In this document: piece after piece, positions 30,135-52,984 of the stretch | Layout of the letters: each line of letters starts with the position of its first letter | Position numbering within the stretch: the first letter of the stretch is position 1 | Source: Telluria mixta | Lineage (GTDB): Bacteria; Pseudomonadota; Gammaproteobacteria; Burkholderiales; Burkholderiaceae_D | Direction of reading: 5' to 3' | DNA length: 64,000 bases | Assembly: GCF_029223865.1 (NCBI RefSeq) | Contig: NZ_CP119520.1 | Span: 3,348,001-3,412,000, forward strand | Made by a program: the position numbers and the translations under genes | Notes under the pieces: generated by a model | What the model saw: only the letters and a program-made list of their open reading frames with translations | The model's database searches: none | What the model was told of the DNA's origin: nothing

Positions 30135-30141
30135 TCCGTCC

Positions 30142-30693
30142 ATGCCATATACCGTTACCCCGACCGCCATTCCCGATGTGCTGGTGCTGACGCCGAAAGT
30201 CTTCGGCGACGCGCGCGGCTTCTTTTTCGAGAGCTACAATGCGCGCGACTTCCGCGAGGCGACAGGCTTGGATGTTTCGTTCGTGCAGGACAACCACAGC
30301 AAGTCCGTGAAAGGCGTTCTGCGCGGTCTCCATTACCAGATTCAAAATGCGCAGGGAAAACTGGTGCGCGCGGTGCAGGGTAGCGTGTTCGACGTCGTCG
30401 TCGACCTGCGCAAGTCCTCCCCAACGTTCGGTCGCTGGGTCGGTGAAGTGCTGAGCGCCGAGAATCACAAGCAATTGTGGGTCCCGCCCGGTTTTGCGCA
30501 TGGGTTCGTCGTACTCAGTGAAACAGCTGAGTTTCTCTACAAGACGACTGATTACTGGTATCCGGCGCATGAGCGTTCGTTGCTGTGGAGCGATCCGGCG
30601 ATCGGTATCCAGTGGCCTATCGATTTCGAACCGCAGCTTGCCGCCAAGGATGCTGCCGGCGTGCCGCTGCAGACGGCTGACCTGTTCGACTAA
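30142..30693 (+). CDS. rfbC: dTDP-4-dehydrorhamnose 3,5-epimerase
   Basis: 183 residues, full length for RmlC. Cupin-type fold with the catalytic His in VLRGLHYQ, VVDLRKSSPTFGRWVGEVLS and the conserved VPPGFAHGFVVLS. It epimerises C3 and C5 of the keto-sugar before RfbD reduces it. It lies 7 bp after rfbA and closes the rhamnose operon. Confidence 0.97.
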   Translation: MPYTVTPTAIPDVLVLTPKVFGDARGFFFESYNARDFREATGLDVSFVQDNHSKSVKGVLRGLHYQIQNAQGKLVRAVQGSVFDVVVDLRKSSPTFGRWVGEVLSAENHKQLWVPPGFAHGFVVLSETAEFLYKTTDYWYPAHERSLLWSDPAIGIQWPIDFEPQLAAKDAAGVPLQTADLFD

Positions 30694-31717: not shown

Positions 31718-32506
31718 ATGACGCAGTTGACTCGCTCATCCTTACAAATTGCCTTGGCAACGTGGAAAGCGTTGTTCCTGCGGGAGGCGGTGACCAGGCT
31801 CGCCGCCGGGCGCGCGGCCTGGGTATGGCTGTTGTTCGAGCCGCTGGCTTACCTGATTTTCATCATGACCCTGTTCGGTTTCGTCTATCACAAGATGGTA
31901 GGGGGCGTCGATGGTGCCATGTTCGTCGTGACCGGCTTGTTGGGGTTCTATTTCGCGCGAAATACTTTCTTGAGAAGCATGGAGGCAATTCATGCAAACG
32001 GCGCATTGTTCACGTATCGCCAGGTCAAGCCGATCGACACCGTGCTGGTGCGTGCGGCTCTGGAAGGCTTTCTGAACCTGTTGAGTGCCATCCTGATTCT
32101 CGCCGGTGCCAGCCTGTTCCATTACAACGTGCTGCCCGACGATCCGCTGCTTGTCATGGCAACGGTGTTCGCCTTGTGGTTGTGCGGACTGGGGCTTGGG
32201 CTGATCTTGTCGGCGGCGACGAAACTCGTGGCCGAACTGGGCAAAGTGGTCAACATTCTCGTCACCCCACTGTATTTCATTTCTGGCGTAATGATTCCCG
32301 CAAGCACGATTCCTCAGCCTTACCGGGATTACCTGTTAGTGAATCCCTTTCTTCATGGTTTAGAAATTCTGCGCGGTGCATATTTTGCTCACTATCACCC
32401 GGTATCGGAAGCGAGCCTAGCCTACGTGTATGGATTTGCACTGGTCACGGTGTTTTTCGGACTCTCCCTGCATTTACGTTTTTCACGTCAGCTGGTCGCG
32501 GAATGA
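31718..32506 (+). CDS. kpsM: Capsule polysaccharide ABC transporter permease
   Basis: 262 residues. ABC-2 type permease with about six membrane helices after an amphipathic N-terminus; the segments AWVWLLFEPLAYLIFIM and ISGVMIPASTIPQPYRDYLLVNPFLHGLEILR are characteristic of KpsM/CtrC/BexB. It forms the inner-membrane channel through which the lipid-linked capsule chain is exported. Its stop overlaps kpsT by 4 bp (ATGA), so kpsMTED are translationally coupled. Confidence 0.94.
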   Translation: MTQLTRSSLQIALATWKALFLREAVTRLAAGRAAWVWLLFEPLAYLIFIMTLFGFVYHKMVGGVDGAMFVVTGLLGFYFARNTFLRSMEAIHANGALFTYRQVKPIDTVLVRAALEGFLNLLSAILILAGASLFHYNVLPDDPLLVMATVFALWLCGLGLGLILSAATKLVAELGKVVNILVTPLYFISGVMIPASTIPQPYRDYLLVNPFLHGLEILRGAYFAHYHPVSEASLAYVYGFALVTVFFGLSLHLRFSRQLVAE

Positions 32507-33168
32507 TTATTGTCGAAGACGTACACAAGCGCTACATGACGAGTCATGGCGCCGGACGCTGGATACTGAAGTCCCTGAATTTCACGATCGCGCCGAAAGT
32601 CAATGTCGGCCTGGTCGGGCGTAACGGCGCGGGCAAATCTACCCTGCTGCGCCTGATCGGCGGCATCGATACGCCCACCAAGGGCAAGATCGAACGGCAT
32701 TGCCGCGTATCGTGGCCGATGGGTTATGGCGGCGGTCTGCAGGGTTCGCTGACGGGGCGGCAGAACGCGAAGTTCGTCTGCCGCATCCATGGTCACGACC
32801 ATGACATGCAGGACCGCCTGGACTATATCCAGGATTTCGCCGGGATCGGCCATTATTTCGATCATCCGGTCAAGACTTATTCGTCGGGCATGCGCTCGCG
32901 ACTGCAATTCGCCATGTCGATGGCGTTCGATTTCGACGTCTATATTTCGGACGAAGTCACAGCAGCCGGCGATATCTCGTTCACCAACAAGGCGGCGGCG
33001 GCTTTTAAGCGCGTTGCCGATCATGCCGGTTTGATCATGGTGTCGCACAGCGAGGAAACGCTGCGCCAGTTTTGCCAGGCCGGCATCTGGCTGCATGAAG
33101 GATCCGCATACTGGTTCGACGACATTGAAGACGCATTGGCAAATTACAAGGAAAGCATAGGCGCATGA
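32503..33168 (+). CDS. kpsT: Capsule polysaccharide ABC transporter ATPase
   Basis: 221 residues. Walker A GRNGAGKST (39-47), signature YSSGMRSR (126-133), Walker B DVYISDE (146-152) followed by VTAAGD, and the switch His in VSHSEE. The short form, without the extra C-terminal glycan-binding domain of Wzt-type ATPases, is that of KpsT/CtrD/BexA. It powers export of the finished chain. Overlaps of 4 bp with kpsM and kpsE show tight coupling. Confidence 0.95.
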   Translation: MIIVEDVHKRYMTSHGAGRWILKSLNFTIAPKVNVGLVGRNGAGKSTLLRLIGGIDTPTKGKIERHCRVSWPMGYGGGLQGSLTGRQNAKFVCRIHGHDHDMQDRLDYIQDFAGIGHYFDHPVKTYSSGMRSRLQFAMSMAFDFDVYISDEVTAAGDISFTNKAAAAFKRVADHAGLIMVSHSEETLRQFCQAGIWLHEGSAYWFDDIEDALANYKESIGA

Positions 33169-34322
33169 GGGATGGCACTAAAGAAACGGTACGCGTTAAG
33201 AGCCCGAAGGCGGGCCTCGTTGCCGTTACCCGATTCGTGACGAATCAAAAGAACATATGGCGCTTCGCCGCGGCACTCTGTGTCGGCGCAACCGTGTACT
33301 GGGGCGTCATCGCGTCCGACCGTTACGTGTCGGAAGCCGATGTCCTGATCGAACACACGCAGCTCGGCGCGGAAAAGAGTGTCGATCTCGGCTCGCTGCT
33401 GGGCGGCGGCGGCGGCGGCAACAACCGGCCCGAACAGCTTCTGCTGCGCAGCTATCTGTTGTCGACCGACATGATGAAAAAGCTGGACGCGAAGATGCGC
33501 CTGAAGGCGCACTTCAGCGACCCGCGGCAGGATCCTCTGTCGCGGTTGTCGCCGTCCGCGACCCAGGAACAGTTCTATCGTTACTACCTGTCGCGTATCA
33601 GTGTCGAGTTCGACGACTACTCCGGTGTGCTGGTGATCAAGGCCCAGGCTTCCGACCCGAAGACGGCCCAGGCCATCACCCAGACGCTCCTGTCCGAAGG
33701 TGAAAACTACATGAACGAGATCGGCCATCACCTGGCCGAATCGCAGGTCACGTTCCTGGAGAAGCAGGTGGCGTCGATGGCGGCGCGTTACCAGCAGGCG
33801 CGCCTGGCCGTACTGAACTTCCAGAACAAGCACGACATGGTATCGCCGGAAAACACGGCCGAAACCGACGTCGGCAGTATTAACAAGCTGCGTGCTACGC
33901 GCGTCGAGCTGGATACCCGCCGCGTCGCGCTGCTGGCCTACCTGACGCCGGAGGCGCCGGGCGTCGTGGATCTGAACGTCCAGATCGCAGCCATTGACAA
34001 ACAGATCGCCGAGCAGCAGAGCCGCCTGACGGGCAAGAGCGGCAAGTCGCTCAACAGCACGGTCGAAGAGTACCAGCGCCTGCAGATGGAGGCCGGTTTT
34101 GCCGAGGATGTGTACAAGACCGCGCTGGCCGGCCTTGAGAAAGGCCGCGTCGAAGTCACGCGCACGCTGAAGAAGGTGTCCGTGCTCCAGGCGCCGACGC
34201 TGCCGGAAGAGTCGCTCCAGCCGCGCCGTTTGTACAACATTGTCACTTTCATTCTCGTCACGATGCTCGTGGCCGGCATTCTTACCTTGCTGGCGGCTAT
34301 CATTCGCGACCATAAGGATTAA
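33165..34322 (+). CDS. kpsE: Capsule export inner-membrane protein KpsE (PCP-3)
   Basis: 385 residues. Two membrane helices, at about 33-52 and 357-379, flank a large periplasmic domain with coiled-coil segments (about 180-345). This is the polysaccharide co-polymerase 3 / KpsE-CtrB-BexC arrangement. It links the KpsMT transporter to the outer-membrane KpsD channel. A Gly run (LLGGGGGGNN, about 80-87) in the periplasmic part is an oddity. It overlaps kpsT by 4 bp. Confidence 0.93.
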   Translation: MRDGTKETVRVKSPKAGLVAVTRFVTNQKNIWRFAAALCVGATVYWGVIASDRYVSEADVLIEHTQLGAEKSVDLGSLLGGGGGGNNRPEQLLLRSYLLSTDMMKKLDAKMRLKAHFSDPRQDPLSRLSPSATQEQFYRYYLSRISVEFDDYSGVLVIKAQASDPKTAQAITQTLLSEGENYMNEIGHHLAESQVTFLEKQVASMAARYQQARLAVLNFQNKHDMVSPENTAETDVGSINKLRATRVELDTRRVALLAYLTPEAPGVVDLNVQIAAIDKQIAEQQSRLTGKSGKSLNSTVEEYQRLQMEAGFAEDVYKTALAGLEKGRVEVTRTLKKVSVLQAPTLPEESLQPRRLYNIVTFILVTMLVAGILTLLAAIIRDHKD

Positions 34323-34325: not shown

Positions 34326-36071
34326 ATGCGATTTTCTTTTGTTATGAGCTTGGCGCTGGTTGCGGCGATGTCGAACGCCGTTGCCGCGCAGCGTACCGGT
34401 AATACCCAGTCCAAGGCGAAGGAAGCGGCAGTCGAGATCAAGGCACCTGCCGGTGCCGAGGGCTCGATGTCGCTGTCGCCGGCCGCGGCCATGAACCAAT
34501 ATGGGGCAGGCACCCAGCTGGAAGCGATGAATACCGTCGAGGCCGGCGCCCCGGCACCGGAAAAATTCGACTATTCCGTGAACACGAAGAGCGACGTGTT
34601 CGGCGCCAAGCTATTCAGCGGCAGCTTCCTGCAGCAGGGCGCGATGCAGTTCAACCCGGACTACCTCATCGCGGTCGGCGACCAGCTGATGATGCGGTTC
34701 TGGGGCGGGTTCAATTTCGAGGGTGTCTTCACGGTCGACCCGAAGGGGAATGTCTTTGTTCCGCAGGTGGGGCCGGTGCAGGTGCTGGGTGTGCGCAACC
34801 GCGACCTGCAGCAGGTCGTCGAGGCATCGGTGCGCAAGGTCTTCCGTGCCAATGTGGCGGTGTATGCGAGCCTGGCTAAGGCGCAGCCCGTACGCGTTTT
34901 CGTCGGCGGCAATGTCCGGCGCCCCGGGCTGTACAACGGTACGAGCATGGACAGCCTGCTGCATTATCTCGACAGCGCTGGCGGCATCGATACCGAGCGC
35001 GGCAGTTTTTTGAACGTGGTGGTGAAGCGCGGCCAGCAGGTCCGTACCTCGGTCAACCTCTACGATTTCCTGCTGAACGGAGTGATGCCGATGATCCAGC
35101 TTGGCGACGGCGACGTGATCTTCGTCGAGCCGCGTCACCATACCGTCAAGGTGGAGGGTTTTGCCGAGAACGCCAAGCGGTTCGAGTTCGTCGACAAGTC
35201 GATCACCCTGGCCGACGTGATGGCGCTTGCCAAACCGACATCGCAGGCAACGAATGTTCGCATCGTGCGTAACTCGGGCACGGTGCGCAATATCGACTAT
35301 TATTCGCTCTCCACAGCGACGGACGTGCGCATTTTCGATGGCGACGAGGTGGAATTTACGTCCGACACCAAGCCGGGAACGATCACCGTCCGCGTCGATG
35401 GCGAGCACCAGAGCATGCGGGAATACGTGCTGCCCTACGGCGCATCGATGGGAATGCTGCTCTCGCAGATCAAGCCCTCGGCGCAATCGGATATGCAGAA
35501 CATCCAGCTGTTCCGCCACAGCGTGCAGGAGCGGCAGAAGGAGTTGCTCGACACTTCGCTGTCGAACCTGCAACAGGCCGTGCTCACCGCCCGCAGCGGC
35601 ACCGCGGAGGAAGCGCAATTGCGCAAGGAGGAAGCTGGCCTGATGCTGCAGTGGGTCGAGCGTGCGCGCAAGATCACGCCGCGCGGGCAGGTGGTGATTT
35701 CGCGTGCCGCCAACCTGAACGACCTGGTGCTGGAAAACGGCGACACCCTGCGGATTCCCGCGAAAGGTAGCCTGGTGCTGGTCAGCGGGGAAGTGCTGTT
35801 CCCGAATGCCGTGGCTTACGATCCGAAGTGGGGCCTGGAAGATTATGTGCGCGTAACCGGTGGTTTGACCCAACATGCCGACTCATCGCGTATCATCATC
35901 GCCCATCCGGATGGTAGTTTCGACGACAGTAACAATTTGTCGGCATTGAAGGCCGGCGATGAAATCATGGTATTGCCAAAAGTTGATGTGAAGTCGCGTC
36001 AGATCTGGAAGGAAGTAACGCAAGTGATTTATCAAATTGCCATCTCGGCGAAAGTTGCACTCGGATTATGA
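34326..36071 (+). CDS. kpsD: Polysaccharide export protein KpsD-like
   Basis: 581 residues. A signal peptide (cleavage about residue 21, SNAVAA) without a lipobox Cys is as in E. coli KpsD and unlike Wza. The Poly_export domain starts at [16 protein letters not shown] (about 112), followed by SLBB-type domains ([16 protein letters not shown], about 182). A helical segment (about 400-450) and a further SLBB repeat near [11 protein letters not shown] come after. It forms the periplasmic/outer-membrane conduit for the capsule. It overlaps wecB by 4 bp. Confidence 0.92.
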
Positions 36072-37207
36072 AAATATTGACTGTGTTCGGGACCCGCCCC
36101 GAGGCCATCAAAATGGCCCCCCTCGTAAAATTGCTGGCACAACAGGCTGACCTCGATGCCCGCGTGTGCGTTACCGCGCAGCACCGGCAGATGCTGGACC
36201 AGGTTCTCGAACTGTTCGAAATCACGCCGGACTACGATCTCGACATCATGAAGCCGGGCCAGACGCTGTCCGGTATCACGACCGAGATCATGACGCGCAT
36301 CGAGCCGGTGCTGACCGAGTTCCGTCCGGATCTAGTGCTGGTGCATGGCGATACCTCGACCACGTTCAGTACCACGCTGGCGTCGTTCTATCAGCGAATT
36401 GCGGTCGGCCACGTGGAAGCGGGCCTGCGTACCGGCAATTTGTTGTCGCCCTGGCCGGAGGAGGCTAATCGCAAGCTCACCGGCGCGCTGGCGGCGTTGC
36501 ATTTCGCGCCGACCCAGCAGTCGCGCGAGAATTTGCTGCGCGAAAACACAGACCAGCAAGCCGTCCACGTGACCGGTAACACCGTGATCGACGCGCTGCT
36601 CTGGGTGAAGGAAAAACTCGAACACGATGCCGCGCTCGAACACTCGCTGCGCGCCCGGTTCCCGTTCCTGCGCGACAGCGCGCGCATGGTGCTGATCACC
36701 GGCCACCGCCGGGAGAATTTCGGCGGCGGCTTCGAGCGCATCTGCGCGTCGATCCGCGACCTCGCGCAGGATTTTCCGGATACCGATTTCGTCTATCCGG
36801 TTCACTTGAACCCGAACGTGCGCGAACCCGTGGGACGCATCCTCAAGGGCCTCACCAACGTTCATCTGATCGAGCCACAGGACTACCTGCCGTTCGTCTA
36901 TCTGATGACGCGTTCGCACATCATCCTGACCGATTCGGGCGGCATCCAGGAAGAGGCACCGTCGCTCGGCAAGCCGGTGCTGGTGATGCGCGACACGACG
37001 GAACGCCCGGAGGCCGTGGCCGCCGGCACCGTCCGCCTGGTGGGTACTGACCCGGAATCGATCAAACAGGCCGTCGCTACCCTGCTGACCGACCAGCAGG
37101 AATACGATCGCATGAGTTTTGCTCACAACCCCTACGGCGATGGCACCGCGTGCCAGCGCATCGTCAATATCATTAAAACATACAAGGACCCCCATGCTGC
37201 AGCATAA
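36068..37207 (+). CDS. wecB: UDP-N-acetylglucosamine 2-epimerase (non-hydrolysing)
   Basis: 379 residues, normal length. Family start [19 protein letters not shown], then [28 protein letters not shown], and [28 protein letters not shown] near residue 280-305. It interconverts UDP-GlcNAc and UDP-ManNAc. With wecC directly downstream it should supply UDP-ManNAcA for the capsule repeat. It overlaps kpsD by 4 bp and wecC by 14 bp. Confidence 0.96.
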
Positions 37208-38471
37208 AGTGAAATCGGTATCCGTTATTGGCCTGGGCTACATTGGCTTGCCGACTGCCGCCATGTTTGCCTCCCGCAAGGTGGAGGTCATCGGCGTCGA
37301 CATTAACCAGGAAGCGGTCGATATCATCAACCAGGGGCGTATCCACATTGTCGAGCCGGATCTCGACATCATCGTACATGCCGCCGTGACCGAAGGGTAT
37401 TTGCGCGCCACTACGAAAGCGGAACCGGCCGACGCTTTCCTGATCGCGGTGCCGACGCCGTTCAAGGACAACCATGAGCCGGACCTGGCCTACGTCAAGG
37501 CGGCCGCCGAATCGATCGCACCTGTGCTTAGCAAGGGCAACACCGTGATCCTCGAGTCGACCTCGCCGGTGGGCGCCACTGAGGCGATGATCGAATGGCT
37601 GGCGGCCGCACGTCCGGACCTGCGTTTCCCGGTACCCGGTGCCAATTGCGATGAGATCGACATCCACGTCGCCTATTGCCCCGAGCGCGTCCTGCCGGGC
37701 CGTGTCGTTACCGAACTGATCGAGAACGACCGTATCATCGGCGGCATGACGCCGGCGTGCTCGCAGCGCGCGGCCGACATCTATCGCGTGTTCGTGCAGG
37801 GGCAGCTCTTGTTCAGCAATGCTCGTACGGCCGAAATGGCGAAACTGACCGAGAACGCCTTTCGCGACGTGAACATCGCGTTCGCGAACGAGTTGTCGCT
37901 GATAAGCGATAAGATCGGTATCGATGTCTGGGAACTGATCCGCCTGGCAAATCACCACCCGCGCGTCAACATCCTTCAGCCGGGCTGCGGCGTCGGTGGC
38001 CATTGCATCGCCGTCGACCCGTGGTTCATCGTTGACAAGACGCCTGAACAGGCACGCCTGATCCGCTCCGCACGCGAAGTGAACGACAGCAAGCCGGAGT
38101 GGGTGTGCGAGCGCATCCGCGCCGAAGTCGCCGCTCTGGTCGCCACCGGCAAACCGGAACAGGAGATCAAGGTGGCCGTTCTCGGTCTGGCGTTCAAACC
38201 CGATATTGACGACCTGCGTGAAAGCCCGGCGCTGCATATCGCCGAGAAGATTGCCGCTGGTTCGCGTGCGCAACTCATGTTGAGCGAGCCGAATGTCGAG
38301 CAGCTGCCGGCATCCCTGGCCAAGTTCCCGCTCGTCGCCCCGTCCGAAGCCATCGCCAACGCCGACGTGATTGCCGTGCTGGTCAAGCACCGTCCTTTCG
38401 TCGAGCTGGCGCAGCAGCTCCGCGACCATTCCCACGTGATCGATGCCGTAGGCATTCTCCACACCCGCTGA
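37194..38471 (+). CDS. wecC: UDP-N-acetyl-D-mannosamine dehydrogenase
   Basis: 425 residues. N-terminal Rossmann motif [10 protein letters not shown] (about 14-23), the central [21 protein letters not shown] helix, and catalytic Cys271 in [15 protein letters not shown]. It oxidises UDP-ManNAc to the uronic acid UDP-ManNAcA in two NAD steps. ATG at 37194 is chosen for the AAGGA site just upstream; a longer frame from 37119 lies inside wecB. Capsule composition with ManNAcA is an inference from this gene pair. Confidence 0.95.
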
Positions 38472-38575: not shown

Positions 38576-41500
38576 ATGAAATCGTCCACTCAACCAAGCG
38601 TCCCTTCCCAAATGTCAGACAATGTTTTTGAGCTGTCGGCCGACGGCGTTTCGTACCGAATGCTGCTCCCGAACGCTGACATCGACTATATCCAGCGCAA
38701 GCTCGCGACCGAGCACGTACCGTACGAGCTGCCGATGCTTGAGGACATGCGCACCCGTCTTGCGGCCGACGACCTGGTCGTGGATGCGGGCGCGAACATC
38801 GGCAACCATACGATGTACCTTGCGGCCGTCGTCGGATGCCGGGTGGTCGCTTTTGAGCCGAATGCGAAGCTGGCTGAGGCTCTCCGCGCAAGCCTGGCGT
38901 TGAATGCGTTGGACGGCAAGGTGGACGTGCGCGAACTCGGGTTGGGCAAACGCGCCGGCCGCGGCCAGTTCGCCAAGAATATTCCGGACAACCTCGGGGC
39001 GCAGAGCATTACCGGCGGCGAGGGGCCACTCGAAATCGCACCGCTCGACAGCATCGATTTCCCGGCGCAGGTTAAGGCCGTCAAGATCGACGTCGAAGGG
39101 ATGGAACTGGATGTGCTGGAAGGTGCTGCCGGGCTGATCGGGCGTGATCGGCCGATTGTCTACGTGGAATGCGCCGACCAGGTCAGCTTCCGTCAGGTGC
39201 ACGAGTGGATGGTTGCAAAAAATTACGGTTATTGGGATACGTTCAATGCGACCCCGACCCATCTGTTCCTACCCAGTGAGCAGACCACGGTCGACCAGCG
39301 CCTGTCGCGCCTGCAATTGAAGGGGGCGCAAGATATTTATCAGTTGCAAGAACAGATCGCCAAGACGCGCGAGATGTTGGACAGCGCGAACCTGAAATAC
39401 CGAGCGGCGAACGAGCAGATCGCCAACCTGAAAGTCCAGCTGACGCAACAGGAAGCGGCTCGTACGAGGGCGGAGCAGGTCGCTAACGATGCGCAAGGCC
39501 AACTCGTGGAAATGCGCAACCGGCTGGAAGCTGAACGCGCCAGTCTGCAGCAGGAGATACAGCGCCTGAGCGGACTGGCCGAGTCGCATCGTGAGGCTGC
39601 GCACGACGCAGAAAAGCAACTCATTCGTATCGAAGCCACCCTCGAGGTCGCACGTGCCCAGGCTGCCGAGGCGACTGCCGGCCGCAACCGTGCTGAGTCC
39701 GACAGTGAACGGCAGGCCGCGGCGGTGCGTGAGCTCACGGACAAGCTGACGACGGCGAACGACCAGCTGGCCACGACGCGCGACAGCCTGCACGAGGCCA
39801 ATCGAAAATATCGCGTGGTGACCGAACAGGTGCAGGAGGTCCGCCGCAAGGCCGAACATGACGATTCCCTGACGAAGATGGCCGCCGAATCGGCCGCGAA
39901 AACCCAGGCCCAGCTCGTCGAGACCCAGGCCCGCCTGCTGGCGGAGCGCGGTGCCTTAGTCGAGGAAATCAACAAGTTGCGCCAGGACTGGCAGGAGGCC
40001 AGCAATGGTGCGCACGAGGTCGAAAAACAACTGGTGCGTGTCGAGGTCCAGTTGCAGGTCGAGAAGGATGCGCTGGCAGCCGCGAACAACAAGTATCGCG
40101 AATCGGTGAACCAGATCGCGACGCTCAAGCAGCGCGTGGCCGAGGAAGAGCAGGCAGCACGCAGCGCCGAGAAACTGTGGGGCGAGGTCCAGGCTGCGAT
40201 GGAGCAGCTGAAGGATGAACTCGGCAAAATGACGGCGCGTTATCAGGCTGAGAAAGAAGCTCTGGAAGCTGCGAACGCAATGTATCAGGCCCAGAAGGAA
40301 ACCCTCGACGCCGCGAATGCAAAATACGAGGCAGAGAAGGAAGCACGCGACGCCGCGAATGCAAAATACGAGGCCGAGAAGGAAGCGCTCGACGCCGCGA
40401 ATGCAAAATACGAGGCGGAAAGCGAAGCTCTCGATGCCGCGAATGAAAAATGTCGTCAGGCCATGACGGAGGTGACGGCGCTGAAGCAACGCGTGGCCGA
40501 GGAAGAGCAGGCGGCGCGCGGCGCTGAGCAGTTATGGGGGCACACTCAGGTCGAACTGCACCAACTGAAGAACCAGCTCGACCAGGTGACGACGAGCTAT
40601 CACACCGCCACGGAAAGCGTCAGCGACCTGAACGCAAAGATCGCGGCTGAAGCCGAGGTGCGGCGCCAGATCGAGCGGAAGGAGGAGGAAGCGCGCGCGC
40701 AGTTGACCCTCGCCCAGTTACAGTACCGTGCCGCGCAGACGGACCTGAAACAGGTCAAGACTGAGCTGAACAATACGACACAGGAGTACCGGGTCGCCAG
40801 GGAGCGCGCCACCGATCTTGGCCGTCAGCTCAACGACGTCAACTTGAAATACCGCCGGATCAACAACGAAGAGATCCCGCAGCTGAAAGCACGCGTGCAA
40901 AGCAGCCAGGCGCAAGCCTACGAACACAAGCGGCAGTTGGAGCAGCTGAAGCTTGAACTGACCAACCACAAGACAAGATTGAAGGAAACCAATCACCAGC
41001 TGGAACGGGTTCGCCAACAAAAGATGCAGGCCGAGCAGCAGGTCATCAAGACCCGTGCCAGCTTGTCGTTCCAGCTCGGCTATATCCTGATCAACGGTTT
41101 TAAGTCGGTCCGTGGTTTCATCGGCATACCGTCGGCCCTGCTTGCATGGCGCAAGGAGGTGGTCAAGCGCCGCAAGCAAAAGGAGCAGCGCCTGCAGAAA
41201 CTGCAGCCGGTTAATATCGTCCCGGCCGCGCAGGCGCCCGCGGTCGCCAGAACGGCACCGCCGCCACTGGACAAAGTCGAAAAAGCAGCACCAATCGCAC
41301 CAATCGTGTCGGACGCACAGGTCGAGGCCATGGACGTCATTGCCGAGATCAAGCAGCAGGAGCAGCCCGCGGAGGCATCCCAGGTGTTGCCGCGCGACCT
41401 GCGCCATCTGAAAGTCGCCTGCATCATGGACGAGTTCACGTTCGGTTCGTACCGGTCCGAGTGCGACCTGTTCCAACTGACGCCGGCCCACTGGCAGACC

Positions 41501-44500
41501 GAACTGGAGTCGTTCAAGCCGGAGTTGCTGTTCATCGAGTCGGCGTGGCGCGGTAAGGATGAACTGTGGGGCAGCAAGGTCGGCCACAACAGCCAGGAAC
41601 TGCAGGGTATCGTCGCATGGTGCCGCCAGCACGGCGTGCCGACCGTCTTCTGGAACAAGGAAGACCCGGTTCACTTCGAGACATTCCTGAGCACTGCCAT
41701 GCTGTTCGACTGCGTGTTCACGACCGATATCGATTGCATCCACCGCTACAAGGCGGCGCTAAAGCACGACAACGTGTTCCTGCTGCCGTTCGCATGCCAG
41801 CCGAAGAACAACCACCCGATCGAGACCTACGAACGCAAGGACGCGTTCTGCTTCGCGGGCGCCTACTATGTACGCTACCCCGACCGCACCCGGGATCTGG
41901 GCAATTTCATCAGCGAGTTGCCGGGATTCCGGCCGGTGGAAATCTACGACCGCAACTACGGCAAGAACGATCCGAATTACCAGTTTCCGCCGGAGTACCA
42001 GCCGTATATCGTCGGGACACTTCCGTTCGACCAGATCGACAAGGCTTACAAGGGCTATCGTTACGCCATTAACCTGAATTCGATCAAGCAGTCGCAGACC
42101 ATGTTTGCGCGCCGTGTGTTCGAATTGATGGCATCTAACACGATCACGGTCAGTAATTTCTCTCGTGGCATCCGTCTGATGTTCGGTGACTTGGTCATCA
42201 CGACCGACAGTGGTCACGAAATGGTGCGTCATCTCGAAACCGTCGCCGGCGATGAAGTTCGCAGCGCGAAGCTGCGCCTCGCCGCTCTGCGCAAGGTGCT
42301 GCAGGAGCATACGTACGAACAGCGCCTGGCCTACGTGTTCGCCAAGGTTTCCGGCGGCTCCGCCGAGGTCCGGCAGCCGGCGATCGCCGTGCTGGCCACT
42401 GCGGCGAACCAGACTGAACTGGACATGGTTCGTGCGAGCGTCGCGCGCCAGACCTACGCGCATTGCCGCGTGCATGTGCTGCTCGGCATGAACTTCACGC
42501 CCGTGCCTTCGACGGACGAGCGGGTACGCTTCCTGCCCCACGCCGATGCCGCAACGCTCGACATCGGCACCATCGCACAAGGCGCGGATTTCGTTGCCGG
42601 CATGGTGGCGCAGGATTACTACGGCCCCAATTACCTGCTCGACATCGCGCTGGCCACCACGTACTCTGGGGCGCAAGTCATCGGCAAGAACGCGCACTAT
42701 GCGTGGGACAACGGCGCGGTTGCCATGCATGCGGCAGGAACGGCATACCGTCCGGCTCCGCAGTTTGCCCTGCGCAGTGCGGCGGTGCGCCTGGCATGCG
42801 TCGCGGAGGCGAACGCGGCATCCTGGTTGGCCGTGTTGCCAACCTCCGCGCTGGGTACGGAACATGGGCTCGCTATCGATGAATTCAACTATTGTCGCAA
42901 TGGCCAGCACGGCGCCGATCTTGATCTGGTGACCACTGCGGTCTGCGACTTGCAGGGGTTGGACACGGGTGTCCCGGTCGCGGAACTGCTGCGCCTGGCG
43001 GAGCGCATTCCGCCCGCTGCGGAAGGCGCTGAACAAGGCGAGATGATCAGCGGCAAGCGCCTGTCCGAAGCGTTCGGCAGGGCGCCGAGCGCCGCCATTC
43101 AAGCCGAGTTCGACGGCGACAACTGGTGCTTCCGGTCGCAACTCGGGGACGGCAAGCACGAGTACCTGTATGCTACGACGGACTTTACTCTCGAAACCCT
43201 GGGCTGGACCAACAAGGCCGAGTTCTATTTCGACACGACACCCGGCCTGAATTTGCAACTGGTGCTCGTGTTCCTTGACGCGCAAAAGCAGAAGATCTCG
43301 CACGTGATCAAGCATGCGAACCGTAACCAGGACGCCGAGATTCCTCTCGGTACGGTCAGTGTGCGCATCGGGTTGCGCATCTATGCCGGCGGCAGCTGCG
43401 ATATCAAGGGTCTGATACTGGGACATCGCAACCTGCAGCCGGCCGAAATCATCGGCAAGGCGGACCGCCTGATCCTCACCAACCATTACCCGTCTTACGA
43501 CGACCTGTACCGTAACGGGTTCGTGCATAGCCGCGTGATGGCATATCGCGAGCGCGGCATCCGTTGCGACGTGTTCCGGATGCGCCCTGCCGAGCCGGTG
43601 TCGTATCACGAATTCGCAGACGTCGATGTGACAACCGGTTCGCAGGAAGTCCTGCACCAAATGCTGTCCAGCGGCCGCTACAAGACCGTGATGGTGCACT
43701 TCCTGGAGCCGGCGATGTGGGAAGTGCTGCAGCACCATATTGACCGCATCAAGGTCGTGGTCTGGGTCCATGGTGCGGAAATCCAGCCGTGGCACCGCCG
43801 TGACTACAATTACTCCACGGAAGAGGAACGTACGGTCGCCAAGATGAAGAGCGCTGCGCGTATGGAATTCTGGCAAGGCTTGCTGCGTCCGATGCCGGCT
43901 AACCTGAAACTCGTGTTCGTGTCACGTTACTTTGCCGAAGAGGTCATGGAAGATATCGGCTTCCGCATTCCGGAGGAACACTACACGATCATCCATAATC
44001 CGATCGATACGGATGTGTTCAGCTATCAGCCGAAACCGGCGGAACAGCGGACCAAGGTATTGTCGATTCGTCCCTACGCATCGGCCAAGTATGCCAATGA
44101 CCTGAGCGTGAAGGCGATTCAGCTGCTCGCCGAAAAGCCGTGGTTCCAGGACATGGAATTCCGGATGATCGGAGATGGCCCGCTGTTCGATACCCTGCTC
44201 GAACCGTTGCGCCAGTATGGCAACGTGCTCATCGAGCGGCGCTTCCTGAAACAGTCCGAGATTGCGGCGCTGCACAAGGAATACGGAATCTTCCTGTCGC
44301 CGACCCGCATGGATGCTCAGGGCGTCTCGCGCGACGAGGCGATGGCCTCCGGCCTGGTGCCGGTGACGAACGGGGTCACCGCGATTCCCGAATTCGTTGA
44401 CGAGCAATGCGGTATTCTGGCACCGGGAGAAGATGCGGTCGCAATGGCGGAAGGCATCGCCGCAATGTATGAGAATCCTGAACTGTTTATGGCGATGTCC

Positions 44501-44578
44501 GAGCAGGCCGCGCTGCGCGTAAAACGGCAGAGTGCCAAGGAAAAGATCGTCGACGCCGAAATCAAGGAGATGGCATGA
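38576..44578 (+). CDS. 2000-residue FkbM methyltransferase - coiled coil - multi-glycosyltransferase protein
   Basis: One unbroken frame. Residues about 45-235 are an FkbM-type SAM methyltransferase (motif I VVDAGANIGNHT at 68; VKIDVEGMELDVL at 168). Residues about 240-825 are a continuous coiled coil with recurring NxKYR modules (starting at 272, 409, 504, 756; a variant NEKCR at 623) and a 14-residue tandem repeat (560-629). SLSFQLGYILINGF and a basic segment follow (828-875), then a Pro/Ala linker. About 942-1255 is a CgeB-like glycosyltransferase module (TVFWNKEDPVHFE). About 1265-1460 is a GT2-like fold lacking its DxD. About 1505-1615 is a beta-sandwich. About 1630-2000 is a GT4-type GT-B transferase (SRDEAMASGLVPV, about 1918). 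No signal peptide, so cytoplasmic. Probably the capsule chain builder; precise reactions unknown. No ribosome site is visible at this ATG; M13 (38612) is an alternative. Confidence 0.88.
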   Translation: MKSSTQPSVPSQMSDNVFELSADGVSYRMLLPNADIDYIQRKLATEHVPYELPMLEDMRTRLAADDLVVDAGANIGNHTMYLAAVVGCRVVAFEPNAKLAEALRASLALNALDGKVDVRELGLGKRAGRGQFAKNIPDNLGAQSITGGEGPLEIAPLDSIDFPAQVKAVKIDVEGMELDVLEGAAGLIGRDRPIVYVECADQVSFRQVHEWMVAKNYGYWDTFNATPTHLFLPSEQTTVDQRLSRLQLKGAQDIYQLQEQIAKTREMLDSANLKYRAANEQIANLKVQLTQQEAARTRAEQVANDAQGQLVEMRNRLEAERASLQQEIQRLSGLAESHREAAHDAEKQLIRIEATLEVARAQAAEATAGRNRAESDSERQAAAVRELTDKLTTANDQLATTRDSLHEANRKYRVVTEQVQEVRRKAEHDDSLTKMAAESAAKTQAQLVETQARLLAERGALVEEINKLRQDWQEASNGAHEVEKQLVRVEVQLQVEKDALAAANNKYRESVNQIATLKQRVAEEEQAARSAEKLWGEVQAAMEQLKDELGKMTARYQAEKEALEAANAMYQAQKETLDAANAKYEAEKEARDAANAKYEAEKEALDAANAKYEAESEALDAANEKCRQAMTEVTALKQRVAEEEQAARGAEQLWGHTQVELHQLKNQLDQVTTSYHTATESVSDLNAKIAAEAEVRRQIERKEEEARAQLTLAQLQYRAAQTDLKQVKTELNNTTQEYRVARERATDLGRQLNDVNLKYRRINNEEIPQLKARVQSSQAQAYEHKRQLEQLKLELTNHKTRLKETNHQLERVRQQKMQAEQQVIKTRASLSFQLGYILINGFKSVRGFIGIPSALLAWRKEVVKRRKQKEQRLQKLQPVNIVPAAQAPAVARTAPPPLDKVEKAAPIAPIVSDAQVEAMDVIAEIKQQEQPAEASQVLPRDLRHLKVACIMDEFTFGSYRSECDLFQLTPAHWQTELESFKPELLFIESAWRGKDELWGSKVGHNSQELQGIVAWCRQHGVPTVFWNKEDPVHFETFLSTAMLFDCVFTTDIDCIHRYKAALKHDNVFLLPFACQPKNNHPIETYERKDAFCFAGAYYVRYPDRTRDLGNFISELPGFRPVEIYDRNYGKNDPNYQFPPEYQPYIVGTLPFDQIDKAYKGYRYAINLNSIKQSQTMFARRVFELMASNTITVSNFSRGIRLMFGDLVITTDSGHEMVRHLETVAGDEVRSAKLRLAALRKVLQEHTYEQRLAYVFAKVSGGSAEVRQPAIAVLATAANQTELDMVRASVARQTYAHCRVHVLLGMNFTPVPSTDERVRFLPHADAATLDIGTIAQGADFVAGMVAQDYYGPNYLLDIALATTYSGAQVIGKNAHYAWDNGAVAMHAAGTAYRPAPQFALRSAAVRLACVAEANAASWLAVLPTSALGTEHGLAIDEFNYCRNGQHGADLDLVTTAVCDLQGLDTGVPVAELLRLAERIPPAAEGAEQGEMISGKRLSEAFGRAPSAAIQAEFDGDNWCFRSQLGDGKHEYLYATTDFTLETLGWTNKAEFYFDTTPGLNLQLVLVFLDAQKQKISHVIKHANRNQDAEIPLGTVSVRIGLRIYAGGSCDIKGLILGHRNLQPAEIIGKADRLILTNHYPSYDDLYRNGFVHSRVMAYRERGIRCDVFRMRPAEPVSYHEFADVDVTTGSQEVLHQMLSSGRYKTVMVHFLEPAMWEVLQHHIDRIKVVVWVHGAEIQPWHRRDYNYSTEEERTVAKMKSAARMEFWQGLLRPMPANLKLVFVSRYFAEEVMEDIGFRIPEEHYTIIHNPIDTDVFSYQPKPAEQRTKVLSIRPYASAKYANDLSVKAIQLLAEKPWFQDMEFRMIGDGPLFDTLLEPLRQYGNVLIERRFLKQSEIAALHKEYGIFLSPTRMDAQGVSRDEAMASGLVPVTNGVTAIPEFVDEQCGILAPGEDAVAMAEGIAAMYENPELFMAMSEQAALRVKRQSAKEKIVDAEIKEMA
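40253..40462 (+). repeat. 42-bp tandem repeat, five units, in-frame in the coiled coil
   Basis: Units start at 40253, 40295, 40337, 40379 and 40421 and encode KEALEAANAMYQAQ, KETLDAANAKYEAE, KEARDAANAKYEAE, KEALDAANAKYEAE and SEALDAANEKCRQA. Each is 14 residues, exactly two heptads, so gain or loss of a unit keeps both reading frame and coiled-coil register. The middle three units are nearly identical at the DNA level, which points to recent duplication. Confidence 0.92.
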
Positions 44579-45531
44579 GATACAACCAGTCGTTCATGAA
44601 AGCACGCACGTCGTTATTCCTGATGGGTTGTCTGCTGGGCGGCAGCGCGGCTTCGGAAGATGCGCTATCGTTGCCTGCCGTGTTCACCTTCGCCGCAGGC
44701 TACAAGATCGATGTGCCGGCACCGGAAAATGTCGTCGAGCTCGGCGTCATCAAGCAATGCGGCAAAAAGGCGTGGTGCATGGACATCTCGCGTTACGACA
44801 GTGCGAAGATGCTGCCGACCGTACCGACGCGGTACGTGCACGACATGCATGCGCCTTACGGTAACAAAACGTGCTCGAATGGTCCCGTGATGACCGTCAA
44901 GGGATCGACCGATAACAAGGTGAAGGTGACGATTCAGCCGACCGGTGACGGCTTTTCAGTGGCATGGTCCGATTTCATTTACCGCTGGGTTGCCGATCCG
45001 AAGGCGCACGACGGTTATACCGTGTCAGAAATAAGGTATAAAAATGAACCGCTCGAACAGGCAGTCGGATTTGCTTTTGCCTCAGACAGCGAAATGAAGG
45101 GCAGTCTGACCAAGGCCGATCTTGCCTATTTTTACAAAGGCGAGATTTACCACAAGACGGCACTCACGCGAGTTGACGGTGCGTGGGAATACGCGCCGTC
45201 CTCGTTCGACTTCCGAACTTATCAGGAAACCGAAAACGGCAATGTCCTGATTCGCTCGTTGCCCGGAGATCAGAGGGTAGTCAAAAAATACGGCAAGCCG
45301 ATGTGGGTAGGAAGCACGATCGTATTGGCCCGGGGGGATGATTCGTTATCGCCCTTGATCCAGGAATATGGCCACGACTTCAATATGGATGGCTGCTTTG
45401 ATGAAGCGGGACACAACAAATTTATGCTTCCTATAGGAAAGGAAAGTGTCGACGCATTGATTTATGTGGAATACACGCCGGACAAGCCACGTGGCTTTCC
45501 GATGCTGTCCGTGGGACGATATTACCGGTGA
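44575..45531 (+). CDS. Exported protein of unknown function in the capsule cluster
   Basis: 318 residues; family not recognised. An N-terminal hydrophobic signal (SLFLMGCLLGGSAAS) suggests export; LMGC could be an imperfect lipobox, or cleavage may follow SAA. The mature part looks beta-rich and has several Cys (CGKKAWC, TCSNG, DGCFDE). DFNMDGCFDE resembles a calcium-loop start, without a clear last ligand. AAGGAGA precedes the ATG, which overlaps the stop of the 2000-residue gene (ATGA), so the two are coupled. A periplasmic or surface role in capsule modification or attachment is only a guess from position. Confidence 0.7.
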   Translation: MRYNQSFMKARTSLFLMGCLLGGSAASEDALSLPAVFTFAAGYKIDVPAPENVVELGVIKQCGKKAWCMDISRYDSAKMLPTVPTRYVHDMHAPYGNKTCSNGPVMTVKGSTDNKVKVTIQPTGDGFSVAWSDFIYRWVADPKAHDGYTVSEIRYKNEPLEQAVGFAFASDSEMKGSLTKADLAYFYKGEIYHKTALTRVDGAWEYAPSSFDFRTYQETENGNVLIRSLPGDQRVVKKYGKPMWVGSTIVLARGDDSLSPLIQEYGHDFNMDGCFDEAGHNKFMLPIGKESVDALIYVEYTPDKPRGFPMLSVGRYYR

Positions 45532-45538
45532 GGATGCG

Positions 45539-49778: not shown

Positions 49779-49868
49779 GAAGCTGGCTGGCCGGCCATTC
49801 TGTGCCGCCAAACATGCTCGCAAACATGGGAGGACCAGATTCGGGATGGCGGCGAAGGAATGTATGAG

Positions 49869-50909
49869 ATGATGAGGTTATTAAAAGAATTGCATGCAGC
49901 GCGGCGCCCAGGCGCCAGCCGGCCACGCATCGCCCTGGTATCGGACGCATTGACGCAGTCCAGCCTCGAGGCGGAGTGCGACGTCATCACGGTTACGCCC
50001 CGCAATCATAAATTCGCGCTCAAGTATGGCCGGCCCGACCTGTTGCTGGTGGAGTCCGCGTGGCAGGGCCATGCGAACAAGTGGAAGTTTCGCATCGCAG
50101 CCTACCCGGATCATCCCCGGCGTTCCAACGTCACCCTCGCCGAACTGGTCACCCGTGCGCGCGACGCGGGTATCCCGACTGTGTTCTGGAACAAGGAAGA
50201 CGGCGTGCATTTCGACCGGTTCATCGACAGTGCGCGCCTGTTCGATCATGTGTTCACGGTCGATGAGAACTGCGTCGCGCGCTACCGCGCCGTGCTGGCG
50301 CCCGAGGCCACGGTCGATACGTTGCTGTTTGCGGTCCAGCCGGATACGCACAGCTTTACTGGATTCGATTTCAAATACATGCGCAGCAATTTCGTGGGCA
50401 GCTACAGCCACCACATTCACGACCGCCGCCGCTGCTGGCAGGACATGTTCTTCGGCGTGGCTACGCAGACCGGTCTGGGCGTGACGGCGGTGGACCGCAA
50501 TTCCGGTCGCAAGGCGGCCCATTACCGTTATCCGCAACTGCCCAATTTCGAGGTATTGCCCGCCGTGATCCACGCCCAGACGGCGCAGATCTACAAGGAC
50601 TACCTGGTCTCGCTGAACGTCAACACCATCGAAGATTCGGCAACAATGTTTTCGCGCCGCCTGGTGGAAATCCTGGCTTGCGGCGGCATCGCCGTGACCA
50701 ATCCGAGTCCGGCGGTAACCCGCTATTTCCAGGATTATTGCCATGTCCTGCACACAGCCGACGAGGCGCACGAACTGTTCGACCGCCTCCGGCACGGTCC
50801 CGACGCGCAGGATCTCGAGCGGGCCCGGGCCGGTGCCGAGTACGTTCTTCGCGAGCATACCTGGGCGCATCGTCTCGACGAAATCATGGCCGTGATAGGA
50901 CGACGATGA
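49869..50909 (+). CDS. Glycosyltransferase, CgeB-like, paralogue of a module in the 2000-residue protein
   Basis: About 346 residues. The start at 49869 is chosen for AAGGA 9 nt upstream; ATG 49860 in the same frame is too close to it. It matches residues about 942-1255 of the large protein along its length: LLLVESAWQGH versus LLFIESAWRGK, IPTVFWNKEDGVHFD versus VPTVFWNKEDPVHFE, and MFSRRLVEILACGGIAVTN versus MFARRVFELMASNTITVSN. It probably transfers a sugar in the cytoplasm during capsule synthesis. Its stop overlaps the kpsC start (ATGA), so it is coupled to linker synthesis. Confidence 0.8.
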   Translation: MMRLLKELHAARRPGASRPRIALVSDALTQSSLEAECDVITVTPRNHKFALKYGRPDLLLVESAWQGHANKWKFRIAAYPDHPRRSNVTLAELVTRARDAGIPTVFWNKEDGVHFDRFIDSARLFDHVFTVDENCVARYRAVLAPEATVDTLLFAVQPDTHSFTGFDFKYMRSNFVGSYSHHIHDRRRCWQDMFFGVATQTGLGVTAVDRNSGRKAAHYRYPQLPNFEVLPAVIHAQTAQIYKDYLVSLNVNTIEDSATMFSRRLVEILACGGIAVTNPSPAVTRYFQDYCHVLHTADEAHELFDRLRHGPDAQDLERARAGAEYVLREHTWAHRLDEIMAVIGRR

Positions 50910-52984
50910 CCCATTCCGCCGTTCGCATACCCATCTGGAACCATGGTCTGTGGCGCCAGGCCCATCTGGCAAGGTTCCTGGATCGCCCGATCAAGGTCGC
51001 ACTGCTGCCTTCGCGTTCCGCCGAGCAGGGCGCATGGCTGTGCTGGGGCGCCAAGCCGAGCGCGCGCCGCACGGCCTGGTATGCCGTGCGCTCGAACGAG
51101 CCTTTGCTGCGCCTGGAGGACGGCTTCCTGCGCTCGTGCGGCCTGGGCGTCGACGGGCATCCGCCGTTGGCGCTGGTCGTCGACGACCTCGGCATTTACT
51201 ACGATGCTACCCGGCCTTCGCGCCTGGAAGCATTGATTGCGTCGTCCGATCCGGAGCCAGATGCACTGGCACAGGCGCGCCGCGCGATCGGGCTGATCCG
51301 GCGTCATCGCTTGTCGAAGTACAACCATGCGCCCGAACTGGCGCTGCCGCCGCTCGCGCCCGGACGCCAGACGCGTGTGCTCGTCATCGACCAGACCCTG
51401 GGCGACGTGTCGGTGCGCCTGGGCGGCGCCGATGCAGACGTATTTGCCGCCATGCTGCGTGCCGCGCTGGCGGAAAACCCCGACGCCGAAATCTGGATCA
51501 AGACCCATCCCGACGTCGTGAGCGGGAAAAAGCGCGGCTACTTGGACGCGCCGCGGCTGGCCGACGCCGATCCGCGTATCCGCCTCATGGCCGACGACGT
51601 CTCGCCGTTGATGCTACTGGAACAGGTCGACAAGGTGTACGCGGTCACGTCGCAAATGGGTTTCGAGGCCCTCATGCTGGACAAGCCCGTCGTGTGCTTC
51701 GGGCTGCCGTGGTATGCGGGCTGGGGCCTGACCGACGACCGCAGCGCGGCGTTGGCGACCGTGCGGCCCCGTCGCATGCACCCGCGGACGGTGGAGCAGT
51801 TGTTCGACGCGGCGTATCTGCGTTATTCGCGCTACATCGATCCATTGACGGGAAAGGCAGGCACGATTTTCGACGTGATCGAATGGCTGGCGCGCAACAA
51901 GGCGCTGAACGACCAGACACGGGGCACGCTCTACTGCGTGGGCATGAGCATGTGGAAACGTGCCGTCGTGCGCCCATTCCTGACCAGCCCGTCATCGCGG
52001 CTGCATTTCGTGCGCTCGCCCGCGGCGCTGGCCCGGCGCGCACTGGCGCCGGACAGTCGGATCGTGGTGTGGGGCATCAAGCATGAGGCCGCCCTTGCCG
52101 CGCTGGCGGCGCAGCGCCGGCTGCCGGTGTGGCGGATGGAGGACGGATTTCTGCGCTCGGTTGGCCTGGGTTCCGACCTGTTTCGGCCGGTATCTCTTGT
52201 TGTGGACCAGTCCGGCATGTATTACGATCCCGCGTCGGGAAGCATGCTCGAGCGCATCATCGCGACCCAGCAGCTCGATGTCGGGGACCTGGAGCGCGCC
52301 AGGTGTTTCCGGCGAGACTACGTGAAGCTCAAGCTGAGCAAGTACAATCTGAGCCGTTCGGGCCTGAACATCGACAGCGGCGGACGCAAGGTCCTGCTCG
52401 TGCCCGGACAGGTCGAGGACGATGCGTCGATCCGGCGCGGCTCGCCGGTCGTACGCAGCAACCTGGACCTGCTGCGCGCGGTGCGCGCAGCCAATCCCGA
52501 CGCCTGCATCCTCTACAAGGCCCATCCGGACGTCGTGGCGGGTAATCGCCAGGGCGCGGTGCCGCCCGAGGAACTCGCGGCGCTGGCCGATCAGTGCGTG
52601 AACGATGCCAATATCATCGACTGCATCCTAGCGGCCGATGAAGTTCACACCATGACGTCCCTGTCCGGCTTCGAAGCACTCCTGCACGGGCGCATGGTGC
52701 ATTGCTACGGGGGGCCGTTCTATGCCGGCTGGGGACTGACCGTCGATCATTATCCCTTGCCCGCGCGCCAGCGTCGGGTTGACCTCGATGCGCTGGTATT
52801 CGCGGTGATGCTGACCTATCCGCGTTATGTACTGCCCGGGGGGCAGGGCTTCGCGTCCGCGGAGCAGGTGATGCATTTCCTGGTGGCACAGGCGGCCGGT
52901 ACCCAGGTGTCGGCCGGTAGTCATTGGGTTGGCCGTCGGGCGCGCAAGGTCAAAGCATTGATTGAGTTGCTGCGAGGCAGGTAG
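50906..52984 (+). CDS. kpsC: Capsule beta-Kdo transferase KpsC
   Basis: 692 residues, two tandem homologous modules (about 1-340 and 345-680), the normal KpsC plan. Each module has a copy of the motif LRLEDGFLRSCGLG / WRMEDGFLRSVGLG, a SKYN segment, KTHPDVVSG / KAHPDVVAG, and a TSQMGFEAL / TSLSGFEAL...FYAGWGLT ending. KpsC alternately adds beta-2,4- and beta-2,7-linked Kdo to the lyso-phosphatidylglycerol anchor, extending the linker begun by KpsS. The ATG at 50906 overlaps the previous stop; the longer open frame from 50678 is not used. Confidence 0.94.
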   Translation: MTHSAVRIPIWNHGLWRQAHLARFLDRPIKVALLPSRSAEQGAWLCWGAKPSARRTAWYAVRSNEPLLRLEDGFLRSCGLGVDGHPPLALVVDDLGIYYDATRPSRLEALIASSDPEPDALAQARRAIGLIRRHRLSKYNHAPELALPPLAPGRQTRVLVIDQTLGDVSVRLGGADADVFAAMLRAALAENPDAEIWIKTHPDVVSGKKRGYLDAPRLADADPRIRLMADDVSPLMLLEQVDKVYAVTSQMGFEALMLDKPVVCFGLPWYAGWGLTDDRSAALATVRPRRMHPRTVEQLFDAAYLRYSRYIDPLTGKAGTIFDVIEWLARNKALNDQTRGTLYCVGMSMWKRAVVRPFLTSPSSRLHFVRSPAALARRALAPDSRIVVWGIKHEAALAALAAQRRLPVWRMEDGFLRSVGLGSDLFRPVSLVVDQSGMYYDPASGSMLERIIATQQLDVGDLERARCFRRDYVKLKLSKYNLSRSGLNIDSGGRKVLLVPGQVEDDASIRRGSPVVRSNLDLLRAVRAANPDACILYKAHPDVVAGNRQGAVPPEELAALADQCVNDANIIDCILAADEVHTMTSLSGFEALLHGRMVHCYGGPFYAGWGLTVDHYPLPARQRRVDLDALVFAVMLTYPRYVLPGGQGFASAEQVMHFLVAQAAGTQVSAGSHWVGRRARKVKALIELLRGR

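Follow-up and report, generated by a model that had tools for sequence, protein, structure and literature searches.

The stretch of DNA analysed here, called the window, comprises 64,000 nt of Telluria mixta (GCF_029223865.1, NZ_CP119520.1, positions 3,348,001-3,412,000, forward strand) and carries a capsule locus with one giant gene, the subject of this report. Its uninterrupted frame of 2000 amino acids (aa) is the longest open reading frame (ORF) listed in the window. An earlier note on this DNA had read in the frame an FkbM-type methyltransferase, a coiled coil of about 585 residues, a CgeB-type glycosyltransferase (GT), a GT2-like fold, a beta-sandwich and a GT4 enzyme; profile searches, coil analysis and a model of the core bore out this content, and heptad analysis gave about 600 residues for the coil (Table 1). 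A chance frame was ruled out by full-length relatives that carry the same Pfam set at 45-50% identity. Since the copy predicted in the T. mixta genome (P0002) has 1988 aa and the near relatives P0003 and P0004 start at the position of Met13, 38612 is the likelier start. Immediately upstream are the genes for KpsM, KpsT, KpsE, a KpsD-type exporter, WecB and WecC, and the stop codon shares bases with the start codon of the following gene (ATGA at 44575). The gene had been placed between wecC and kpsC; the order is right, but kpsC lies 6.3 kb downstream and five ORFs intervene.

Table 1. Features of the giant gene and of the capsule locus around it (positions in the window).
Feature	Position	Strand	Size or residues	Basis and remarks
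Whole gene, putative polymerase-coil-methyltransferase	38576..44578	+	2000 aa ORF	Probable start 38612, giving 1988 aa
FkbM-family methyltransferase domain	38624..39274	+	about 17-233	
Long coiled coil, proposed ruler	39287..41086	+	about 238-837	Heptad analysis
42-bp tandem repeat x5 within coil	40244..40451	+	unit 14 residues	Unit equals 2 heptads
Conserved basic amphipathic foot	41045..41197	+		RASLSFQLGYILINGFKSVRGFIGIPSALLAWRKEVVKRRK; helix 851-874 in model
CgeB-type GT-B glycosyltransferase	41411..42352	+	about 946-1259	PF13524, model
GT-A/GT2-like domain	42383..42907	+	about 1270-1444	Model; DxD not conserved
Beta-sandwich, carbohydrate-binding-module-like	43040..43432	+	about 1489-1619	Strands in model
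GT4 glycosyltransferase	43457..44575	+	1628-2000	D1913-x7-E1921
KpsM, ABC exporter membrane subunit	31718..32506	+		NF050053 3.2e-41 (under cut-off); PF01061 above cut-off
KpsT, ABC ATPase	32503..33168	+	221 aa	Without C-terminal extension
KpsE	33165..34322	+		TIGR01010 1.5e-89, below the model's cut-off
KpsD-type outer-membrane exporter	34326..36071	+		Poly_export/SLBB
wecB	36068..37207	+		TIGR00236 1.7e-161
wecC, UDP-ManNAc dehydrogenase (to UDP-ManNAcA)	37194..38471	+		NF008286 8.8e-202
Protein without Pfam/NCBIfam match	44575..45531	+		Start overlaps stop of the giant gene
DUF6270 protein	45464-46585			
GNAT/FemAB-like protein	46713-48578			
XcbB/CpsF-like protein	48687-49778			Weak match
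Stand-alone CgeB-type GT	49860..50909	+		PF13524 2.9e-19; 35% to P0001 residues 946-1258; overlaps kpsC
KpsC	50906..52984	+		PF05159
KpsS	53183..54535	+		PF05159 above cut-off; NF050054 2.2e-121 under its cut-off

The first domain belongs to the PF05050 family: the S-adenosylmethionine (SAM)-binding motifs are present, and it matches PF05050 with E 2.4e-15 and TIGR01444 with 8.6e-24 (profile match at residues 70-219). The predicted structure of residues 930-2000 consists of a GT-B fold, a GT-A-like fold, a beta-sandwich and a second GT-B fold, with a mean predicted local distance difference test score (pLDDT) of 94.1; comparison of this core with the PDB was dominated by the GT4 part and barely probed the remaining domains. 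In the CgeB-type GT (PF13524, E 4.6e-15, residues 1138-1254), R1179, R1180, N1168 and N1194 are kept in 67 of 67 aligned sequences. The hallmark of GT4 enzymes is a GT-B fold with an E/D-x7-E motif, which we take D1913-x7-E1921 to be, and PF13692 (E 4e-12) and PF00534 (E 3e-11) match within about the last 320 residues; the domain is thus assigned to GT4. The conserved DxD metal/donor motif was not found in the GT-A-like middle domain in the 67 aligned sequences, where the corresponding columns (1344-1346, placed by motif reading without structural superposition) are variable. The protein therefore has two intact and one probably inactive GT fold, the middle one probably serving as a non-catalytic spacer; the three GT modules counted previously stand as folds, but just two of them are intact. 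The modelled strands of the beta-sandwich suggest a role like that of a carbohydrate-binding module.

No kinase partner like that of WbdD O9a was recognised in the 2000-aa protein by Pfam or NCBIfam, an absence that is not proof. Homology of the methyltransferase with WbdD was rejected: a search with the FkbM domain gave no WbdD match (5 sequences, up to E 1), and the alternative methyltransferase type found in relatives (locus L043) matched WbdD weakly, at E 0.0025, among 134 matches.

The coil contains one proline (768), and its heptad register is held over most of its length with few skips. At the coiled-coil rise of 0.1485 nm per residue, 595 residues could span up to about 88 nm as a single straight coiled coil; the monomer model gives helices with low-confidence breaks. 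The tandem repeats, each of two heptads, offer an obvious route to length change. Across 74 FkbM-type sequences the coil varies from 117 to 637 residues (449-623 in the nearest relatives), whereas the linker from foot to GT is nearly constant, at 125-178 residues in those 102 of 121 sequences that carry both motifs. In 10 of the 28 nearest coil pairs of different length the difference is divisible by 7 (binomial p 0.004), as against 0 of 19 pairs in the linker control. Eight relatives have a core identity to the T. mixta protein of at least 0.76 (13 compared; P0020, truncated and with a coil of +42, left out); the coils of six differ from it by multiples of 7 (+28, +7, -119, -21, -21 and -56) and those of the other two, at -146 and -115, do not. 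Gaps that are multiples of 7 make up 42 of 205 in the coil versus 8 of 162 elsewhere, in alignment pairs that are not independent. The stricter idea that every coil change is one of whole heptads was rejected, as it holds for only 10 of the 28 pairs.

Sequence calculations gave the foot a hydrophobic moment of up to 1.5 and a net charge of up to +6; it may dock the protein at the inner membrane. The foot motif occurs also in other proteins of the related loci (L067:17940-19262, L012:15989-17686, L021:18812-20143 and L048:8714-12939), where it may act as a common tag for docking to a membrane or a complex.

A unique fusion was rejected, since there are many relatives: a protein search that scored 7989 candidates gave 793 matches at E 1e-3, of which the best 120 were listed, and a genome scan confirmed at least 579 relatives among at least 598 pattern matches. 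The best 80 loci, picked by similarity and not randomly, were kept; the locus tallies below concern these, and they cover nine named phyla. Closer to T. mixta the distribution is patchy, the core being found in 1 of 62 genomes of the genus and the full-length protein in 1 of 60 genomes of the family, each time the strain's own. Forty-nine loci have at least 7 kb on each side (L080 was left out of this count). WecB or WecC occurs in 45 of them and both in 35, and the polymer therefore probably contains N-acetylmannosaminuronic acid (ManNAcA); as WecB and WecC together make UDP-ManNAcA (the uridine diphosphate sugar), ManNAcA is the likely repeat sugar in T. mixta too. A KpsT-like ATPase was found in 30 of the 49 and KpsC/S in 7, and from Proteobacteria to Clostridia the core is accompanied by WecBC and ATP-binding cassette (ABC) exporters.

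The methyltransferase is the changeable part of the family. Classes were assigned by hand, with a long coil defined by our own criterion of at least 90 residues. In 31 of the 80 loci the core is preceded, in the same protein, by a methyltransferase (FkbM in 16, a different class I type in 15), in 14 a methyltransferase is encoded by a separate gene nearby, and in 8 there is a third methyltransferase-like domain, located on coil proteins or close to them, 6 of these with separate coil proteins. The third domain bears the motif VxEFGSGxST (L035:4665-7376, L036:4665-7376 and L020:3376-5838, also L014, L016, L017, L018 and L079); no Pfam model recognised it in L020, L035 or L036, and it is named by its glycine motif only. 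Pseudomonadota have 21 fused, 1 separate, 8 of the third type, 5 with a coil only and 7 with nothing found; Bacillota have 8 separate, 1 with a coil only and 12 with nothing found; Actinomycetota have 3 fused and 3 separate. These counts omit weak methyltransferase matches in L039 (42 and 28 bits) and, on the opposite strand, in L041 (57 bits) and L063 (30 bits), and L037, L041, L054 and L060 are hard to class, their contigs starting close to or inside the gene. Given a run of N in L013, its split could have arisen in assembly. The foot motif is still present in L011, L015, L022, L037 and L041, in which neither a methyltransferase nor a long coil was found.

Inspection of the separate forms indicated that a detectable coil follows 10 of the 11 separate methyltransferases of Bacillota and Actinomycetota and that the separate proteins inspected end in a short basic tail, like the fused foot in place and charge. 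Standing beside a core-only polymerase, such a protein is, judged by its sequence, the WbdD layout without the kinase. In L055 the FkbM protein has no coil of its own, and the coil sits in the adjacent protein. Alcaligenes has an inverted version, a 905-residue protein in the order foot (a weak match, E 0.002-0.008), coil and methyltransferase-like domain, the enzyme-like domain again lying at the end far from the foot. Nitrotoga L069 (7633-12153) retains coil and foot with no recognisable methyltransferase and is a possible natural terminator-less variant. A FastTree phylogeny of 80 cores (the window core and 79 rows; incomplete cores L041, L080 and L084 left out; 19 of 77 inner branches weak) requires at least 9 changes of methyltransferase type and at least 20 changes between fused, separate and none. 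The repeated attachment of unlike methyltransferases at one and the same end speaks for their being functionally tied to the polymerase.

The surrounding locus is of the Kps (group 2/3) type, as KpsM, T, E, D, C and S were all found, KpsM, KpsE and KpsS with scores below the cut-offs set by NCBIfam. The first GT of the core has a relative in the stand-alone CgeB-type GT, which gives matches of more than 250 bits in 9 of the 49 loci with complete flanks and could be the transition transferase between the linker of 3-deoxy-D-manno-oct-2-ulosonic acid (Kdo) and the repeat. DUF6270 matches occur in 21 and XcbB-like matches in 7 of the 49 related loci. An rmlBDAC cluster lies upstream (27301-30693), and RmlA/B matches are found in just 7 of the 49. 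A flagellar cluster (55397-63454: flhB, flhA, an SRP54-type GTPase, a fliA-type sigma factor, motA and motB) follows the capsule locus directly, which together with the patchy distribution suggests that the capsule locus is an inserted island. A role in flagellin glycosylation was rejected, FlhA/FlhB/FliA matches above 60 bits being found in 0 of the 49 loci.

On this evidence we propose that the core would be held at the inner membrane by its basic amphipathic foot and would extend a disaccharide-type, ManNAcA-containing repeat on the Kdo linker built by KpsC and KpsS. The coil would hold the FkbM methyltransferase away from the membrane, and once the growing end was long enough to reach it an O-methyl cap would be added; the capped end would no longer be accepted by the GTs, and the chain would be exported by KpsMT. 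The proposal builds on which domains are present and in what order, on the core fold, on methyltransferase and GT4 motifs that are intact, on the locus, on relatives with split or inverted forms and on the plasticity of coil length; from these we infer membrane binding by the foot, the sugar specificity, the terminal methyl and a coil-set length. A putative terminator-type enzyme does lie at the far end of a long coil (by sequence and a low-confidence model), and GT modules, which would do the polymerising, lie at the opposite end, in cis or in trans (GT folds in the model, split relatives). We are confident of the architecture and of a ManNAcA-type polymerase core, and the polymerase part, taken alone, is likely right. 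The chances that the methyl cap is a length-measured terminator are about even, and the complete reading, in which one protein by itself polymerises, measures and methyl-terminates the capsule chains, could go either way. The earlier note had already suggested that combination for an ABC-exported capsule; of all readings it accounts best for the domain layout, for relatives with split or inverted forms and for the way coil length behaves, though the terminal methyl is putative and KpsT has no Wzt-type module.

Several observations weigh against a measured methyl cap. ABC_tran is the sole Pfam domain above cut-off in the 221-aa KpsT, which lacks the Wzt-type carbohydrate-binding extension that reads the cap in O-antigen systems. 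The methyl could also sit on internal sugars. The coil model is of low confidence and broken at 397-437, 602-612 and 725-733, and 18 of the 28 coil-length pairs, among them a recurrent 47-residue step in Stutzerimonas, are not multiples of 7. Seven of the 80 loci have a coil with no methyltransferase found, and in 20 neither a methyltransferase nor a long coil was found (some are cut short by the contig start); since 12 of the 21 Bacillota loci are among these 20, the core can apparently do without a terminator in many cases. Tails of the separate Bacillota proteins were not recognised by the foot profile, and those of L046, L049 and L064 only at E >1. Among the 15 genomes searched, those of 15 of the 19 loci without KpsT (L046, L049, L059 and L064 left out), 8 Pseudomonas/Stutzerimonas genomes gave no PF05159 (KpsC/S) match and only generic or distant ABC matches to KpsT, so that the machine may run with another exporter; 3 of the 8 (L011, L015 and L022) are also without a methyltransferase. 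Pseudomonas/Stutzerimonas relatives adjoin a protein of about 580 residues with 4-7 predicted membrane spans (L006:14969-21852, L047:15902-25568). In L006 and L047 it has no Pfam/NCBIfam match and is flanked by heparinase II/III-like proteins and two GT4s, and by size and hydropathy it occurs also in L007, L008, L015, L033 and L073.

Alternatively, FkbM would methylate a sugar within every repeat or in many of them, and the coil would be a flexible tether or scaffold by which the decorating enzyme stays in the polymerase complex. In favour of this, O-methylation of repeat sugars is common among FkbM-type enzymes, a module for reading a cap is absent from KpsT, and many loci show no methyltransferase, as expected if the decoration is optional. 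For a decorating enzyme, however, a rod of 600 residues would be superfluous, and neither the recurrence of different methyltransferase families at the coil end far from the core nor a coil that varies widely, partly in whole heptads, beside a nearly constant linker would be expected; we regard repeat methylation as unlikely, though as a serious competitor.

It is improbable, in our judgement, that the coil mainly oligomerises or scaffolds (as trimer or dimer), with length set by export rate, KpsE or sugar supply and the methyltransferase a minor cap. To oligomerise, a coil needs far fewer heptads than the nearest relatives have in their 449-623 residues, and close relatives differ greatly in coil length while their catalytic parts are alike. 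Nitrotoga L069 and six other loci, with a coil and no methyltransferase found, are consistent with scaffolding; passages of PMC3482155 state that the WbdD coil is also required for trimer formation and matters for kinase activity, and passages of PMC12220298 that length control in Kps capsules is not understood. A non-polymerase role, either in making a short linker or in modifying a different glycan (e.g. a protein glycan), with polymerisation of the capsule left to other GTs, could be argued from the second CgeB-type GT, the adjoining flagellar cluster and the Pseudomonas relatives outside Kps loci, and is very improbable given that this is the sole multi-GT protein recognised between wecC and kpsC, that the core travels with WecBC and ABC exporters from Proteobacteria to Clostridia, and that flagellar genes are missing from the 49 loci at the threshold above.

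The preferred reading, a polymerase with its ruler and terminator, can be extended tentatively to the family: a widespread modular length-measuring system for ManNAcA glycans, with one two-GT core, recurrent methyltransferases on a length-variable coil and no cap-reading exporter module. Gram-negatives would mostly have the parts fused, some Bacillota and Actinomycetota with ABC exporters would have them as separate proteins, and Alcaligenes would have them in inverted order. This extension, which we put at somewhat under an even chance, is weakened by the three fused Actinomycetota loci, the Bacillota loci that show neither part and the failure of the foot profile on the Bacillota tails. A 2025 review, in passages of PMC12220298, calls for more work on whether the length of ABC-dependent capsules is dysregulated or governed by a yet-unidentified control factor. 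If the extension is true, the modular system would be the missing factor of at least some Kps capsules, and slippage of the two-heptad repeats would tune capsule thickness; if the separate Bacillota and Actinomycetota forms act alike, terminator-ruler control would reach beyond Gram-negative O-antigens. Because the family offers natural length variants, split versions and methyltransferase swaps, capsule length control becomes directly testable.

The family was not described as characterised in the open-access literature searched, nor was a terminator or ruler for E. coli group 2/3-type capsules found established there. The claim that the arrangement is undescribed was too strong, since the cis layout has been published for O-polysaccharides: passages of PMC11231755 describe ABC-dependent assembly of O-polysaccharides as marked, in most Klebsiella serotypes, by a coil ruler with a far-end terminator, which WbbB and O7 ORF6 have in cis. 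According to the same passages, WbbB (Raoultella terrigena / Klebsiella pneumoniae O12) resembles the T. mixta protein in that a single polypeptide carries an N-terminal terminator, a coil and two GT modules for polymerisation; it differs in its beta-Kdo transferase terminator, its GT99, GT102 and GT103 modules and an O-polysaccharide exported by Wzm/Wzt, not Kps. The closest overall layout they describe is that of ORF6 of K. pneumoniae O7, with an N-terminal methyltransferase, a coil and C-terminal GTs in cis, although ORF6 has a methyltransferase-kinase (methyl-phosphate cap), two GT2 modules and a further GT in trans, and makes an O-polysaccharide. WbdD of E. coli O8/O9a resembles the protein in its order of methyltransferase, coil and membrane region, and in O8 it is a simple methyltransferase without kinase (passages of PMC3482155), adding methyl only. 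The C-terminal coil region of O9a WbdD covers residues 460-708, as against about 600 residues in T. mixta. In the WbdD/WbdA pair, unlike in T. mixta, the polymerase is a separate protein and the Wzt binding module reads the cap; this trans layout is matched in Bacillota and some Actinomycetota, where methyltransferase and coil form a protein of their own.

The export and linker genes resemble those of E. coli group 2/3-type (KpsMTEDCS) capsules, among which plasmid-borne loci also have wecBC and a CgeB-type GT; in an E. coli plasmid capsule locus this GT lies between a KpsE-like gene and wecB. Passages of PMC13171606 mention that in E. coli group 3 capsule clusters the putative methyltransferase genes vary in coil length, a variation not expected there to be critical, and passages of PMC10433991 record a SAM-dependent methyltransferase gene heading a group 3 variable region. 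The teichuronic acid of Micrococcus luteus, described in passages of PMC3005890 as a polymer of ManNAcA and Glc, is likewise a ManNAcA polymer whose synthetase was purified as an enzyme complex; it is likened here by sugar content, and actinobacterial relatives of the core are found among the 80 loci. Because the cap-reading module is absent, we do not file the T. mixta protein in the Wzt-coupled class, though it would work like the known polymerase-terminator proteins; it differs from the known cis proteins in its Kps capsule locus, its putative FkbM terminator and its exporter without the Wzt binding module.

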